Shown here: one piece after another, positions 15,961 to 64,000 of the stretch
How the letters are laid out: each line of letters begins with the position of its first letter
Numbering within the stretch: the first letter of the stretch is position 1
Source of the DNA: Lachnospiraceae bacterium NK4A179
GTDB lineage: Bacteria; Bacillota; Clostridia; Lachnospirales; Lachnospiraceae
Direction of reading: 5' to 3'
Length of the DNA: 64,000 nt
NCBI GenBank assembly: GCA_000421045.1
Contig: ATWC01000005.1
Span: forward strand, 62,001-126,000
Made by a program: the position numbers and the translations under genes
Notes under the pieces: generated by a model
Told to the model about the DNA's origin: nothing
Seen by the model: the letters and a program-made list of their open reading frames with translations, nothing else
Database searches by the model: none

Positions 15961-15966
15961 CTTGAT

Positions 15967-16205
15967 GTTGATTCGTCAGGTGCTGCGGAATTAATAGTAC
16001 GCAGATAATAGGGAAGCGGGTGCAAATCCCGCACGAACTCGTCACCGTGATTGCAGGAAAGACCACAGACTAAATAGCCACTGGATATAGACCGGGAAGG
16101 CTGTCTGAGGGTCATGCATCAGCCGGGAGACCTGCCTGTTCGAAGACGCGTGCCGCGAGTAATCGGCAAGGCGTGTCACAAGTGCATCCTTTCAACGTGG
16201 GTGCA
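15967..16205 (+). promoter_or_regulatory. Cobalamin riboswitch
   Basis: The conserved landmarks occur in order: AGGTGCTGCG, AATAGGGAA, GCGGGTGCAAATCCCGC, CGTCACCGTGA, GCCACTG, ACCGGGAAGG, GGGAGACCTGCC, and a terminal arm built on GACGCGTGCC and GGCAAGGCGTGTC. This is the adenosylcobalamin-type aptamer layout. It is followed by a small hairpin (TGCATCC/GGGTGCA) and a terminator, consistent with transcriptional shut-off of the downstream operon when cobalamin is plentiful. Confidence 0.93.
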
Positions 16206-53494: not shown

Positions 53495-53548
53495 TTGACA
53501 AGTTAGAAAAACCTAACTATAATCGCTTAAGGTTAGCGATAGCTAACG
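53495..53548 (+). promoter_or_regulatory. feo promoter with two DtxR/IdeR-like inverted repeats
   Basis: -35 TTGACA (53495-53500), 17-bp spacer, -10 TATAAT (53518-53523). The spacer contains GTTAG-(6)-CTAAC (53502-53517). Just after the -10 lies GTTAGC-GATA-GCTAAC (53532-53547). The arms resemble the TTAGGTTAG half-sites of DtxR/IdeR/MntR-type metalloregulators, so iron-dependent repression is likely. Confidence 0.8.
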
Positions 53549-57995: not shown

Positions 57996-58298
57996 ATGCC
58001 AATAATAGCACCGGTATCCGAACTAAGAAATTATGGACAGGTACTTGAAAAAGTAAAACCAAACGCTCCTGTTTATTTGACTAAAAATGGTCATGGTCAG
58101 TTTAGCGTTCACAGTATAGAGGATGATGAGGAATTTGAAAAGGCAAGGGCGATGGTACGACTCCTGACCGAGATAAACAAGGGTATACAGTCTGGAGAAG
58201 AACAAGGCTGGCTCTCTGATGAGGATCTTGATAAACATTTCATTGAGAGACGTAAGCAGAAGGAAAAGATGCTGATGGAACAGAAAACGGAGGGTTAA
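57996..58298 (+). CDS. Phd/YefM-type antitoxin
   Basis: 100 residues. The N-terminus MPIIAPVSELRNYGQVLEKV, followed by PVYLTKNGHGQFSVHSIED, is the Phd/YefM DNA-binding fold; the C-terminal half is charged and helical (toxin-binding). It should bind the ParE-like toxin encoded 2 bp downstream and repress the promoter. GAGGAGGG precedes the ATG. Confidence 0.88.
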   Translation: MPIIAPVSELRNYGQVLEKVKPNAPVYLTKNGHGQFSVHSIEDDEEFEKARAMVRLLTEINKGIQSGEEQGWLSDEDLDKHFIERRKQKEKMLMEQKTEG

Positions 58299-58300
58299 AT

Positions 58301-58636
58301 ATGATTTACCAACTTAGATACTCTCCGATTGCTGAAGAAGATCTGGATCGTGTGTGGGATGAAGTTTGGGAGGCTTCACAAAACTTTGATATAGCGGACA
58401 AATATGTGGAAGATCTTCGTAATGCCTTGAGACAAAAGAAGAAGTATCCAAAGACAGGTAGCCCGCTTACATACATGGGGGAGTTTACGGGACTGTATTA
58501 TGTGACGTTTAAAGAGTATATTGCATTTTACAGAATCCATGGTGATGTGATTGAGGTTGCAAGAGTACTGTTCTCCCGAAGCGATTATATGAAAGAATTG
58601 TTTGGGAAAAGCGAATACTTACATCGCCCTTTATGA
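58301..58636 (+). CDS. ParE/RelE-family toxin
   Basis: 111 residues: LRYSPIAEEDLDRVWDEVWE at the N-terminus, then YVEDLRNALRQKKKYPKTGS, YYVTFKEYIAFYRIHGD and VARVLFSRSDYMKELFG, the order of the ParE/RelE fold with the basic and Tyr residues near the end. Members act as gyrase poisons or ribosome-dependent mRNases; which applies cannot be told. It follows the antitoxin by two bases. Confidence 0.88.
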   Translation: MIYQLRYSPIAEEDLDRVWDEVWEASQNFDIADKYVEDLRNALRQKKKYPKTGSPLTYMGEFTGLYYVTFKEYIAFYRIHGDVIEVARVLFSRSDYMKELFGKSEYLHRPL

Positions 58637-58698: not shown

Positions 58699-59679
58699 AT
58701 GGAAGCTTATAAAACGGAATGGTATGGCAGTAAAGCAAAGGTGCTCCGGCGTTTTCGGAATATGCAGGTCATTGATTATGGTTGCCGGGGAAAAGGGATA
58801 ATTACCGATATCCGTCTGTTTCCGGGGATTCAGCTCAGCTTACAGGACATGGAGACGGAGTCGGTATTTCCGGCACAGACTTTTTCGGATGATATTGTAT
58901 CGATCAATTATTGCGTGGACGGCAGGCAGGAGAGTGAGTTTCGGGATCATACCGTTGCTTATCTTTTGCAGCATCATTTAAGTGTGATTGGGACGAAATT
59001 TTTGCCTGTTTCATTTTCTTTTCCGCTTAGGAAGTACCGTGGAATATCGCTTGTGCTGGAGCAGGGGGCGATGGATGCCGAAACCTTTAAGATACTGAAC
59101 ACATTTGGGGTGGATATTGGACAGATTGAAGAACACCTTCACCTGGAAGAAAAATGGTTTATCAGTCATCCAATGAAAGGACTGGATCATTTATTCAGGG
59201 AAATCCTGCAGGCCACGTCATTTGATGGGAGCCGCTTCGAACTGCACAGACTGCGTCTTAAGGTGATCGAATTGCTGCAGTATATCTCGCAGATGGATGC
59301 CGTTATGGACGAGGAACATATTTATTTTTCTATGGAACAGATCCGGAAAACCAAACAGATCGCCGAAGAGATGCTGAACGACCCGGAAAACAGACTGACA
59401 CTGGAGGAATACGCAAAGAAGTATGAAATATCGGTTTCGGTATTTCACAAGATTTTTAATCAAATTTATGGAGATACGCCACACGTATACCGTAAAAAAT
59501 ATAAGATGAATCTTGCGTGTATGTATCTGCGGGAGGGAGGAAGAAAGATCAGCGATATTGCTTTGGAACTGGGATACAGCAATCCGAGCAAATTTTCCAA
59601 AGCATTTTACAGTGTCTATGGGGTTTTGCCTAAGCAATACCAAAAAGAAAACAGGAATGGGCTATTTTTGGAAGTATAA
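58699..59679 (+). CDS. AraC-family transcriptional regulator
   Basis: 326 residues. The C-terminal 100 residues hold the two helix-turn-helix motifs (LTLEEYAKKYEISVSVFHKI and KISDIALELGYSNPSKFSKA, then FYSVYGVLPKQYQ). The N-terminal part has no recognised ligand domain. It sits upstream of an ABC exporter pair in the same orientation, the arrangement seen with siderophore-type (YbtPQ-like) transporter pairs, so it is likely to regulate them. The ribosome binding site is weak. Confidence 0.9.
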   Translation: MEAYKTEWYGSKAKVLRRFRNMQVIDYGCRGKGIITDIRLFPGIQLSLQDMETESVFPAQTFSDDIVSINYCVDGRQESEFRDHTVAYLLQHHLSVIGTKFLPVSFSFPLRKYRGISLVLEQGAMDAETFKILNTFGVDIGQIEEHLHLEEKWFISHPMKGLDHLFREILQATSFDGSRFELHRLRLKVIELLQYISQMDAVMDEEHIYFSMEQIRKTKQIAEEMLNDPENRLTLEEYAKKYEISVSVFHKIFNQIYGDTPHVYRKKYKMNLACMYLREGGRKISDIALELGYSNPSKFSKAFYSVYGVLPKQYQKENRNGLFLEV

Positions 59680-59718
59680 GAGCTTTTCGGAGTAGAAGGA
59701 CAAAAGAATAGATGATAT

Positions 59719-59754
59719 AAAAAGCGTGGTAATAAACAATGCCACGCTTTTTTT
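59719..59754 (+). terminator. Terminator after the AraC-type gene
   Basis: AAAGCGTGG-(12 nt)-CCACGCTTT followed by TTTT. Confidence 0.88.
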
Positions 59755-59761
59755 ATGCACA

Positions 59762-59852
59762 GGGTCGCCGAAAGGAAAACGTTGCCTGACGGCAACCGGC
59801 GACCCGCGCGCGAGCAGGGTGCGACTTCGTCTTCCCTACTCGATTGCACAGG
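59762..59852 (+). promoter_or_regulatory. GC-rich structured leader of the ABC pair
   Basis: GGGTCGCCG (59762-59770) pairs with CGGCGACCC (59797-59805) and encloses the perfect stem GTTGCC-TGAC-GGCAAC (59781-59796). A further stem, GAGCAGGG with CCCTACTC, follows at about 59812-59841. These lie between the terminator and the ribosome binding site of the first ABC gene. Possible RNA control element; no known class is recognised. Confidence 0.55.
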
Positions 59853-59894
59853 AAGCAGAAAGAAGCGCGGAAGAATAAGGAGGACTGACAGAAA

Positions 59895-61697
59895 GTGAGT
59901 CAAAAAAATAAAAAGAACAAAAAGAAAAACGGCTTGGCAAGGTGTCTGGAGATCGCCGCAAAACGAAAACCGCTGGTGATCCTATCGGCAGTGCTTTCGT
60001 CGATTGCGGCAATCTGTTCCTTTGTGCCGTATCTGGCAATCTATTGTGTGATCCGGGAGATTCTTATGGTATATCCCGACCTGAACCGCCTGAACACGGA
60101 AGCGATCCGGTTATATTCGGTTTGGGCAATGCTTGGGATTATTGGAAACCTGATCAGTTATTTTCTGGCAATTCTGTGTTCACATATTGGGGCTTTTGGA
60201 ACGATCTATGACTTAAAAATCGAATTTGCCGATCATCTGGCCCGGATTCCCCTGGGATATCATCTGAGTATCGGAAGCGGCAAACTTCGCAAGATCATGG
60301 AAGGAAACATTGAAAGCATCGAAGGGTTTCTGGCGCATCAGTTTCCTGATTTTGTGGCCTCGGTGACCAGTCCGATCGTGATGGTGATCCTGCTGTTTGT
60401 AGTTGACTGGCGGTTTGGGCTGGCCAGCCTCGCGGGAATTATTGCAGCGTTTGTTGCAGAGTTTATGGGATACGGCAGCGGAGAAATGAAAAATACAATG
60501 CAGCAGTATCAGGATGCATTGGAAGATATGAACAATGCATCGGTGGAGTTTGTCCGCGGTATGCCGGTCATCAAGATATTCGGTAAGGAGGAATCCTCCT
60601 TTGAACGCTTGAAATCAGCGATTAATAAATACACAGACTGGGTTCTTAAGTTTTCTCTGGGGTGGCAGAATTGCATGCCTGCGTTCACGACCATTGTAAA
60701 TAATATCTATCTTTTTCTGATCCCGGTAGGGATTCTGGTGGGGAGAAATGCAAAAGATCCGAAAATGTTCGCATTACACTTTGTTTTTTATCTGCTGTTT
60801 GTACCGGCGATCGCAGGTATCCTCAACAAGATCATGTATGTATCGGAAAGCTTTATGGAGATAAACAATAATGTTGCCCGTATGGATGAAATACTCTATA
60901 TCAGTGAGCTTACGGACAATGGAACGAAAGTTCCGGCAGGCTGTGATGTGCGTTTTGAAAATGTATCGTTTTCCTATGAAGGCAGAACTGAGCAGGCACT
61001 GAAAAATGTCAGCTTTCAGGCGCAGGAAGGACAGCTTACGGCAGTCGTCGGAGCCTCCGGAAGCGGTAAGAGTACTATCGCCAATCTCTTATCCCGATTC
61101 TGGGATATCGGAGAGGGAAGCATAAAGATTGGGAATACGGATATCCGGGAGATCTCGCAGGAAGAACTGATGAAGACAATCAGTTTTGTCTATCAGGATA
61201 CCTTTCTGTTTAAGATGAGCATTGCGGATAATATACGGCTGGGAAGGAGAAATGCATCGGATCAGGATGTAATGGAAGCGGCAAGACAGGCTCAGTGCCA
61301 TGAGTTTATCATGCAGTTGCCGGATGGCTATCAAACAGTGGTGGGAAGCAGCGGAGTACACTTGTCCGGTGGGGAAAGACAGCGTATCGCGATTGCCAGA
61401 GCTATACTTAAGGATTCTCCGGTCATCATACTGGACGAGGCAACTGCATTTTCGGATCCGGAGAACGAATACCTGATCCAGAAATCTTTTGAAAATCTGA
61501 CGAAGAACAAAACCGTGATCATGATCGCACACCGGCTGAGTACGGTGAGGGATGCTGACCGTATCCTGGTAATGCAGGATGGAGAACTGGTGGAAAGCGG
61601 TAACCATGAAGCGCTGTATGAAAAAGGCGGCCGTTACAGAAAACTCTGGGACAGCTATGCACAGACTTTGGAATGGAAGGTAGGGGAAACAGCATGA
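59895..61697 (+). CDS. ABC transporter, permease-ATPase (first of pair)
   Basis: 600 residues. Six membrane helices to about residue 320, then VVGASGSGKSTIANLLSRFW (Walker A), FVYQDTFLFKMSIADNIRLG, VHLSGGERQRIAIARAILKD, VIILDEATAFSDPENE (Walker B with catalytic Glu) and IAHRLSTV. Translation starts at GTG 59895 with AAGGAGG about 11 bases upstream. It forms a heterodimer with the next product. The set resembles YbtP/YbtQ-like siderophore importers or exporters in gut Firmicutes; direction and substrate are inferred from context only. Codon use looks more GC-rich than in the feo region. Confidence 0.88.
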   Translation: MSQKNKKNKKKNGLARCLEIAAKRKPLVILSAVLSSIAAICSFVPYLAIYCVIREILMVYPDLNRLNTEAIRLYSVWAMLGIIGNLISYFLAILCSHIGAFGTIYDLKIEFADHLARIPLGYHLSIGSGKLRKIMEGNIESIEGFLAHQFPDFVASVTSPIVMVILLFVVDWRFGLASLAGIIAAFVAEFMGYGSGEMKNTMQQYQDALEDMNNASVEFVRGMPVIKIFGKEESSFERLKSAINKYTDWVLKFSLGWQNCMPAFTTIVNNIYLFLIPVGILVGRNAKDPKMFALHFVFYLLFVPAIAGILNKIMYVSESFMEINNNVARMDEILYISELTDNGTKVPAGCDVRFENVSFSYEGRTEQALKNVSFQAQEGQLTAVVGASGSGKSTIANLLSRFWDIGEGSIKIGNTDIREISQEELMKTISFVYQDTFLFKMSIADNIRLGRRNASDQDVMEAARQAQCHEFIMQLPDGYQTVVGSSGVHLSGGERQRIAIARAILKDSPVIILDEATAFSDPENEYLIQKSFENLTKNKTVIMIAHRLSTVRDADRILVMQDGELVESGNHEALYEKGGRYRKLWDSYAQTLEWKVGETA

Positions 61698-63418
61698 AGA
61701 AATTAAAGGATTTTTTACTTTTATCGGATCGGGGATACGCAGATCTGAAGAAAGCGATTCTGGCTTGTACACTGACCAATCTGGCGATGGTTCTCCCGTT
61801 TATGGTTACAGTGATGTTGTTCAAAGAGATCCTGCTGTATTTTACCGCAGGAGAGATCAACTGGCAGCATATGTGGCTGTTGTGGGGCGCGGGGATCGTT
61901 TCGGCCGTGATCGTATTTCTGGCGGCAAAGAATGATTACCGTAAAACATACATTGCATCTTATAAAGAATCCAATCATACCAGAGAACGTATCGCGGAGC
62001 ACCTGACCAGGCTTCCGATGAGTTTTTATAATACAAAGGATCTGACAGAGATCACAACGAATATGATGTCGGACTGCTCGGCCATGGAATCTATGTTAAG
62101 CAGCACTATACCGCCGCTGATCGCCAATATGATCTCAAGCACCATTACCTGTTTATTGCTTGCGTTATTTGAGTGGCGGCTTGCACTCTGCATCTTCGTT
62201 ACCATACCGTTTGCGTTTATGATCATATGGGCGAGCAAGAAGAGGCAGAAGAAGCTCTTTGAAAAGCAGGTGGAAGAAAAGCTGACGGCTTCCGACCGGA
62301 TCCAGGAGTATCTGGAAGGCATGAAAGTGGTAAGATCCTGCAATATGGCAGGAGAAAGTTTTGAAAACTTAAAGCAGGTGCTCACAAGACTGAAGAAGAT
62401 ATCGGTAAAAGTAGAATTGGCAGTAGGGGTGTTCATGTCGAGTGCCAGTATGGTATTGCAGGCAGGGATCGGGATCACGGTATTTGTCGGTTGCCGGTTG
62501 CTCATACAGGGTAAGGTGGAACTGCTGACCCTGCTGATGTTTCTGCTGATGGCAACCAGAATGTATGGACCGATCCTGGCAATCCTGGGGCAGCTGTCTT
62601 CTCTGCTGAACCTGGATGTGGTAACAAAGCGTATGCGAACGCTTCTGAATGCTCCGGAGATGAGCGGAAACAGACCGTGTACGCCGGGAGGATCGATCTG
62701 TCTGGAGCATGTATCATTTGGTTATAACGAAGAAGAGACGATAAAAGATGTATCCTTAACAATACGTCCGGGCGAAACGGTGGCATTTGTAGGACCTTCC
62801 GGCAGCGGCAAGAGTACACTGACTAAGTTGATTGCAAGATTTTGGGACGTTTCTGAAGGAAGGATCACATATGGCGGAGACGATATCAGACAGCTGGCGC
62901 CGGGGGGACTTATGAAGAATTTCTCCTTTGTATTTCAGGATGTAACGCTCTTTCAGGATACGATTCTGAACAATATCCGGATGGGAAAAGAAAATGCTAC
63001 GGATGAAGAAGTTCTGGAAGCAGCGAAGAAAGCTTTTTGTGATGAATTTGTTTCACGGCTTCCGGACGGCTATGAGACGGTTCTTGGAGAAAACGGTGGA
63101 ACACTCTCCGGCGGAGAACGACAGCGGATCTCGATTGCCAGGGCGATACTGAAAGATGCACCGGTCATTATCCTTGATGAGGCTACGGCATCACTGGATC
63201 CGGAGAATGAAGTATTTGTTCAGCAGGCGATCGCAAATCTGTCCGAAAACAAGACCGTGATCATGATCGCACACAGACTGCGTACCATTACCGGCGCAGA
63301 TCAGATCTTTGTTCTGGAACAGGGCAGAGTGAAGGAAAGTGGAACGCACGCAGAACTGCTGGAGCAAAAAGGGCTCTATAAAAAACTGTTCCGGCTGCAG
63401 AACAGTATGGCCGGTTAG
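61694..63418 (+). CDS. ABC transporter, permease-ATPase (second of pair)
   Basis: 574 residues from MKKLKDFLLLSDRGYADLKK. Six membrane helices, then FVGPSGSGKSTLTKLIARFW (Walker A), FVFQDVTLFQDTILNNIRMG, GTLSGGERQRISIARAILKD, VIILDEATASLDPENE and IAHRLRTI. Both ATPase sites of the pair keep the catalytic Glu. The ATG overlaps the preceding stop (ATGA) and has TAGGGG upstream; the alternative start at 61673 lies inside the first gene. Confidence 0.9.
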   Translation: MKKLKDFLLLSDRGYADLKKAILACTLTNLAMVLPFMVTVMLFKEILLYFTAGEINWQHMWLLWGAGIVSAVIVFLAAKNDYRKTYIASYKESNHTRERIAEHLTRLPMSFYNTKDLTEITTNMMSDCSAMESMLSSTIPPLIANMISSTITCLLLALFEWRLALCIFVTIPFAFMIIWASKKRQKKLFEKQVEEKLTASDRIQEYLEGMKVVRSCNMAGESFENLKQVLTRLKKISVKVELAVGVFMSSASMVLQAGIGITVFVGCRLLIQGKVELLTLLMFLLMATRMYGPILAILGQLSSLLNLDVVTKRMRTLLNAPEMSGNRPCTPGGSICLEHVSFGYNEEETIKDVSLTIRPGETVAFVGPSGSGKSTLTKLIARFWDVSEGRITYGGDDIRQLAPGGLMKNFSFVFQDVTLFQDTILNNIRMGKENATDEEVLEAAKKAFCDEFVSRLPDGYETVLGENGGTLSGGERQRISIARAILKDAPVIILDEATASLDPENEVFVQQAIANLSENKTVIMIAHRLRTITGADQIFVLEQGRVKESGTHAELLEQKGLYKKLFRLQNSMAG

Positions 63419-63531
63419 GATATTAGGATATTGCACTTAAAGAAAGCGGAGGTTGCAGAGCGCGAAAAAAGCCTCCCGAGGCAGGAGCACCAAGTAGAAG
63501 ACCAGGTATGGGTGTAGATGACTAAATACAG

Positions 63532-63571
63532 ACGGGTAGCTGCGTTTCCGGCGTGGCTACCCGTTTTTTTT
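63532..63571 (+). terminator. Terminator after the ABC pair
   Basis: ACGGGTAGC-(14 nt)-GCTACCCGT followed by a long T run. Confidence 0.92.
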
Positions 63572-63582
63572 CGTCCGGATTA

Positions 63583-63632
63583 TAGACAGAGATGCAAACG
63601 AGTGTTATTATACGGTGTTAGCCAAGGCTAAC
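63583..63632 (+). promoter_or_regulatory. Promoter with a DtxR/IdeR-like palindrome
   Basis: -35 TAGACA (63583-63588), 17-bp spacer, -10 TATTAT (63606-63611), followed at 63617-63632 by the perfect palindrome GTTAGCC-AA-GGCTAAC. The same arms and the same place relative to the -10 occur at the feo promoter (53532-53547). Confidence 0.7.
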
Positions 63633-63713
63633 TGGTGGGGTGAAGCATGGCGTAAGGCTTAATACGCATTTCATAAGGTCGCAGACTGAATGCAGTCAGT
63701 GGGCTTTTTATTT
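63618..63713 (+). ncRNA. Candidate iron-controlled small RNA or leader
   Basis: Downstream of the iron-box promoter about 90 bases hold no gene (the only ATG is followed at once by TAA). The stretch ends in a hairpin built on GACTG-AATG-CAGTC, extended with wobble pairs, followed by TTTTTATTT (63677-63713). Promoter, operator and terminator together suggest a short transcript. Confidence 0.3.
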
Positions 63714-64000
63714 GAAGGATGGACATGATGCACAGGATGTTGATGGAACTCGCTTAATGTTTGGAACGTTAAGAAATTATCTTGATGAGGAATTTATACA
63801 AAATCACCCTATGATAAAGATCACGAGGGGTGGCGAAGTAAAGGAATATGAACTATTTGCTGTTAAAGTGACAGATACAGATGATGAAGCATACAGGCTG
63901 GATTTTGATGATGGAGAATTCGAGGAATTTGCCGATGCAATGGGAGCTCCAGCAAATACGGTAGAGATCCTTACATTATCTACATGCCTTGGAAATGAGG
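63712..64000 (+). pseudogene. Class B sortase, 5'-truncated and cut by the window edge
   Basis: The frame from about 63712 reads GHDAQDVDG (catalytic His), MFGTLRNYLDEEFIQNHP, EYELFAVKVTD, and ends with ILTLSTC, where TLxTC holds the catalytic Cys. This is the second half of a sortase B. No ATG or ribosome binding site is present before it; the frame upstream continues through the hairpin region without a start, and the N-terminal membrane anchor and first beta-strands are missing. It looks like a remnant joined to the iron-box region, though a TTG start at 63712 cannot be excluded. The 3' end is outside the window. Confidence 0.65.

Follow-up and report, generated by a model that had tools for sequence, protein, structure and literature searches.

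The element at positions 63583-63713 of the window, the 64,000-nt stretch of Lachnospiraceae bacterium NK4A179 DNA analyzed in this work, is quite likely the intact promoter-operator of an alpha/beta-hydrolase operon that was probably induced by iron limitation and whose genes were deleted at this site. The operator is followed by a remnant of a hydrolase gene, then by a foreign hairpin and then by half of a sortase gene, and we therefore interpret the locus as a deletion scar that carries an orphaned iron-box promoter. The original prediction described it as the build of an iron-responsive small RNA (sRNA) or, alternatively, as the leader of a lost gene. The promoter, palindrome, hairpin and truncated sortase that it named are all present where it placed them, and its alternative is the reading favored by our comparisons: the same promoter drives an intact hydrolase gene in two related contigs (L052 and L053), and a 31-nt piece of the hydrolase gene is found in the window. 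Since the gene once driven by the promoter was deleted, the suspected short RNA is most likely the leftover leader of that gene. Judging from homology, the gene coded for an alpha/beta hydrolase rather than for the sortase.

The promoter, both hairpins, the gene remnants and the sortase fragment described below are on the + strand, and the palindromic operators are listed without a strand. The promoter scan identified the -35 hexamer TAGACA (63583-63588) and, 17 bp further, the -10 hexamer TATTAT preceded by an extended TG (63606-63611), with 10 of 12 positions matching; the -10 hexamer is also supported by the alignment of copies. The -35 hexamer is identical in all ten aligned copies, for eight of which TAGAC belonged to the search pattern. 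The hexamers alone are not significant, because the 601 bp scanned contain two promoter-like sites compared with 1.2 in shuffled sequences. The operator, or iron box, GTTAGCCAAGGCTAAC (63617-63632) is a perfect 16-bp palindrome, GTTAGCC-AA-GGCTAAC, that begins 5 nt 3' of the -10 hexamer and covers the expected transcription start. Its proposed likeness to the feo site was confirmed: at up to three mismatches the palindrome occurs elsewhere in the window only in the feo promoter (53532-53547), where the operator pattern places two sites for comparison (53502-53517 and 53532-53547). Matches to the palindrome at this threshold number four in the window, with 0.28 expected, and none of 100 shuffles reached this count.

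The promoter is itself preceded by a terminator hairpin, GGGTAGC...GCTACCC followed by T8 (63530-63570), which has 17 pairs and a U-tract and is listed by the strict terminator scan as 63530-63566. A similar hairpin lies 5' of the promoter in L004/L057, L005/L053, L006/L056 and L059. Near-identical copies of this hairpin, GGGTAGCTGCG...CGTGGCTACCC, are found ~50 bp 5' of the promoter at several unrelated places, and they show paired changes (GGGTAGC/GCTACCC to GGATAGC/GCTATCC), so that the upstream terminator and the promoter seem to travel together.

The source assembly (3.22 Mb, 73 contigs) contains nine perfect GTTAGN6CTAAC sites, compared with 1.27 expected by a first-order Markov estimate from ~96 kb of genome sequence. 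Only the perfect sites are informative, because the number of sites with one mismatch (32) does not exceed that of a reversed control pattern (43). The operator is one member of a genuine set, whose eight other perfect sites are associated with feo, flavodoxin, NifH-like, hydrolase and mntP-Zip genes, some of them of iron-uptake or iron-sparing type. Two are the feoA/feoB sites in the window (53502-53517 and 53532-53547), and one is near a second feoB, whose open frame begins MNRIALLGQPNSGKSTVF, and a TetR-like gene; the names feoA, feoB and TetR were assigned by reading translations. A locus in G183 related to the second feoB also includes a feoA-like frame. The other sites are located just 5' of a NifH-like gene (L018:705-1472, contig C24; Fer4_NifH, 331 bits), before a flavodoxin gene, before two alpha/beta hydrolase genes (one on C24, the other on C28), and before an mntP-Zip fusion gene on contig C20.

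A single DtxR-family repressor is encoded in the genome (L060:1489-1854), with both Pfam domains above cut-off, and it would be the candidate regulator acting on this operator in response to iron. Fur was set aside as the regulator: no PF01475 match was found in this one assembly of 73 contigs, an absence that is not absolute, while the same profile matched a FUR protein in 13 of 14 control genomes. The functions of the genes near the operator sites suggest that the signal is probably iron; given the mntP-Zip fusion, manganese is a possible signal instead. The Corynebacterium glutamicum DtxR consensus is a 19-bp dyad, TTAGGTTAG(G/C)CTAACCTAA (PMC1382209). The sites described here resemble those DtxR boxes in having TTAG/CTAA-type half-sites that lie over a promoter and before iron genes, but they differ in the spacing of the half-sites, GTTAG-N6-CTAAC consisting of two arms with a free centre, and in that the regulator and the metal here are putative. 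As in DtxR/IdeR systems, the genome encodes a protein with both DtxR-family domains. The portion of the literature covered by our search gave no account of a GTTAG-N6-CTAAC operator in Lachnospiraceae.

A BLAST search with 63575-63999 against 98 genomes, one of them the genome of the window, recovered the promoter-operator, but no other part of the 131-bp element, from three congeners and from a second site in the window's genome; a fifth genome gave a weak match to the sortase part. By scanning GTDB genomes with a promoter pattern, we identified eight named Lachnospiraceae MAG contigs (L052-L059), several of them titled rumen or omasum and one Butyrivibrio sp.; L053, L056 and L057 are apparently the same contigs as the three congener matches. 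The promoter-operator is thereby shared by ten loci, namely the window, the mntP-Zip locus of the same genome (L002) and the eight named contigs. The search pattern fixed many promoter bases, and the invariance of columns is partly built in for eight of the ten alignment rows; of the columns that the pattern left free, the AGA that follows TAGAC and the CTAAC arm are nevertheless invariant. This second operator arm is retained in all eight named contigs though it was outside the search requirement, and the six bases that separate the arms differ among them.

In these relatives the promoter-operator heads an alpha/beta-hydrolase operon that is eroded in most copies. An intact 303-aa alpha/beta hydrolase (Abhydrolase_3) is encoded directly behind the promoter in L053, and the same hydrolase in L052 runs off the contig end (94% over 200 aa). 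The gene has lost codons 26-275 in L054 and is reduced to its first six codons followed by a stop in L056 and L059. No recognizable close piece of it was found behind the promoter in L055, L057 and L058, and L057 has a distant hydrolase paralogue (25%) further on. An ATC hydrolase gene (PF14196) follows in L054, and DUF6796 genes are found in L056 and L058. The recurrent operon behind the promoter in L052-L059 comprises the alpha/beta hydrolase, the ATC hydrolase and DUF6796, with deletions or stubs in several species. On C20, where the genome of the window has its second copy, the promoter is followed by a gene (L009:9280-10898) for a 460-aa protein in which an MntP manganese-efflux domain is fused to a Zip transporter domain. 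Between the operator and mntP-Zip lies a scrap of an ATC-hydrolase-like gene, CDDIGADNPMAKNIYMCFVFLSI, which on reading resembles the gene adjoining the hydrolase end in G183. The L052-L059 copies and the C20 copy thus show that the operon has often eroded while its promoter stayed intact. The window shares with the other copies (L052-L059, L002) the promoter, the spacer, the operator and, often, the upstream terminator hairpin, but it differs from them in having a hairpin and a sortase fragment instead of a hydrolase, ATC-hydrolase, DUF6796 or transporter gene on the 3' side. We also considered synteny with L052 through its upstream tandem ABC-transporter pair and rejected it: the pairs are only ~35% identical, and the arrangement is therefore similar, not an orthologous locus.

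Judging by the intact starts of L052, L053, L056 and L059, the stretch 63634-63655 behind the operator, GGTGGGGTGAAGC followed by ATG GCG TAA (a stop after two codons), appears to be what remains of a ribosome-binding stretch and start codon. An ungapped alignment then matches 63642-63672 to nucleotides 792-822 of the 912-nt hydrolase gene of L053, corresponding to codons 265-274 of 303. The score of this remnant is 17; 3 of 2000 segment shuffles did as well, and none of 2000 gene shuffles or of 165 control chunks. In the frame of the hydrolase it reads KHGVRLNTHF, compared with KYGVKLNTYI. The remnant is only 31 nt long, with 24 identities to L053, and this is a caveat to the lost-hydrolase reading. 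The same stretch is 24/26 identical in G183, a match (E 6e-4 per genome, 397 genomes searched) that would be weak by itself without the L053 test. Because the ribosome-binding-like stretch and the ATG resemble intact starts, the simplest history, with its presumed order of deletions, would be the loss of the part between roughly the start codon and codon 265.

The 3' portion of the element has a different origin. Positions 63661-63709 are 82% identical to a stretch in G206 that adjoins a broken helicase-like gene and, when folded, forms a hairpin of the same type; it is the single clear relative of the hairpin. Eleven bases, AATACGCATTT, are common to the window and the G206 stretch, and the first nine of them also occur in the G183 hydrolase gene, which would suit a join made at short homology. 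Folding predicts an imperfect hairpin with a U-tract, possibly a weak terminator, at 63675-63713: the stem (63675-63706) has A.A and G.G mismatches, and TTTTTATTT occupies 63705-63713. Its minimum free energy is -13.9 kcal/mol (z -2.2), and 7 of 200 shuffles were as good. The hairpin lies ~42 nt from the operator, and the distance from the likely transcription start to the end of the stem is ~87 nt. Beyond it, homology to a class B sortase begins only at 63719 and continues through 64000 to what would be window position 64041, in agreement with the truncated sortase originally proposed to follow the element. The first half of the gene is missing: the TIGR03064 match covers only positions 137-235 of 235, scores 37 bits compared with a cut-off of 153.75, and gives no indication of a full-length sortase with an N-terminal anchor. 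The sortase has a relative in G689, with 67% DNA identity and a frame of 225 aa.

An iron-responsive, trans-acting sRNA, in which a repressor-controlled promoter would give an RNA of ~95 nt with the operator stem at its 5' end and the hairpin at the other, pairing with mRNAs of iron enzymes, is very unlikely in the light of these comparisons. The order of promoter, operator, hairpin and U-tract is right for it, and 63617-63720 folds better than all 200 shuffles (z -2.3), in part through the operator palindrome itself. But the promoter drives a protein gene in relatives, and the body of the putative RNA is accounted for by the hydrolase remnant and an unrelated hairpin, which is imperfect and absent from the list of the strict terminator scan; a terminator-like hairpin within the next 250 nt was found in none of the nine other promoter copies. 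The genome search proposed with the original prediction, widened to 396 other genomes of the family, did not recover 63633-63730 as a whole; it gave no more than two matches to parts of the stretch, with E values of 5e-7 and 6e-4 per genome, and these lie in different contexts. A conserved RNA was accordingly rejected, the body being found whole neither among the family genomes nor in the 97 relatives. A pattern derived from the hairpin had no match in IMG/VR, phages gave none, and plasmids gave one 19-nt chance match. No Rfam family corresponds to the element: with gathering scores as the threshold, cmscan reported only a cobalamin riboswitch and one tRNA in the entire window, and at E up to 10 the 10 matches in 63400-64000 are all well below cut-off, the best being a snoRNA (E 0.032, 20 bits compared with 45) outside the element. 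The riboswitch (RF00174, 94 bits) is at 15961-16153. A short iron-responsive transcript may be made from the element, but nothing supports a functional sRNA here. We consider it highly improbable that the fusion of the iron promoter to a foreign hairpin, through deletion of the hydrolase operon, has produced a ~95-nt RNA that now is, or is becoming, a working iron-responsive RNA; such a case would be a small RNA that had arisen out of the scar of a gene loss. Iron-sparing sRNAs are represented by FsrA in Bacillus subtilis and RyhB in E. coli. The element resembles them in its repressor-controlled promoter, possible short transcript and hairpin with a U-tract, and differs in an unconserved RNA body composed of gene remnants, an imperfect terminator and a genome in which no Fur match was found.

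Two uses of the promoter other than the making of an sRNA were also weighed. We give very little credence to a new fusion protein translated from the truncated sortase frame (GTG at 63640, 133 aa). This frame is indeed open from the GTG through the hydrolase scrap and the hairpin into the sortase fragment, where the stretches GHD, TLSTC and RLLVQG resemble sortase motifs of L049. However, the ribosome-binding-like stretch directly abuts the GTG, the better-spaced ATG at 63647 is followed by a stop after two codons, the hairpin intervenes, and the sortase lacks about its first half, membrane anchor included (the L049 protein has 225 aa). Equally doubtful in our estimate is selection of the terminator, promoter and operator as a portable module after the loss of the gene, e.g. 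as a site for repressor titration or as a promoter awaiting a gene. The recurrence of the upstream hairpin together with the promoter-operator at several loci with different neighbours, and the intact promoter where the hydrolase is gone, are in favor of such a module. Against it, DUF6796, ATC hydrolase or mntP-Zip is still present on the 3' side in several other copies, and their retention of the promoter is explained by its ordinary function because another gene still follows. The promoter and operator at 63583-63632 are without the decay that would be expected of a long-abandoned promoter, which is a point against the orphan reading, and their undamaged state fits either a recent deletion or remaining use.

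For the preferred reading, an orphaned promoter of a lost hydrolase operon, we propose the following control. When iron is plentiful, the DtxR-family repressor would occupy GTTAGCC-AA-GGCTAAC and block transcription; when iron is scarce, it would leave the operator. The present transcript would be a ~95-nt leader containing the 3' scrap of the hydrolase gene, which may stop at the imperfect hairpin or read through into what is left of the sortase gene. What had been suspected to be a new regulatory RNA becomes in this way a readable relic. The locus is ordinary in kind, and it is useful for marking a DtxR-type iron regulon in these Lachnospiraceae. It provides them with an operator that can be put to use, GTTAG-N6-CTAAC, and with a candidate iron regulon, in a genome with a DtxR-type repressor and no Fur found. 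The candidate regulon includes the little-studied and often eroded operon of the hydrolase, ATC hydrolase and DUF6796.

The element is located 3' of a tandem ABC-transporter pair, the second gene of which ends at 63418. In the region 58699-63418, the gene of an AraC-type regulator precedes those of two ABC exporter-type half-transporters, a layout that we take to be reminiscent of siderophore-type importers. At 57996-58636 there is a likely toxin-antitoxin pair, in which a ParE-type toxin (PF05016) follows a putative antitoxin of 100 aa.
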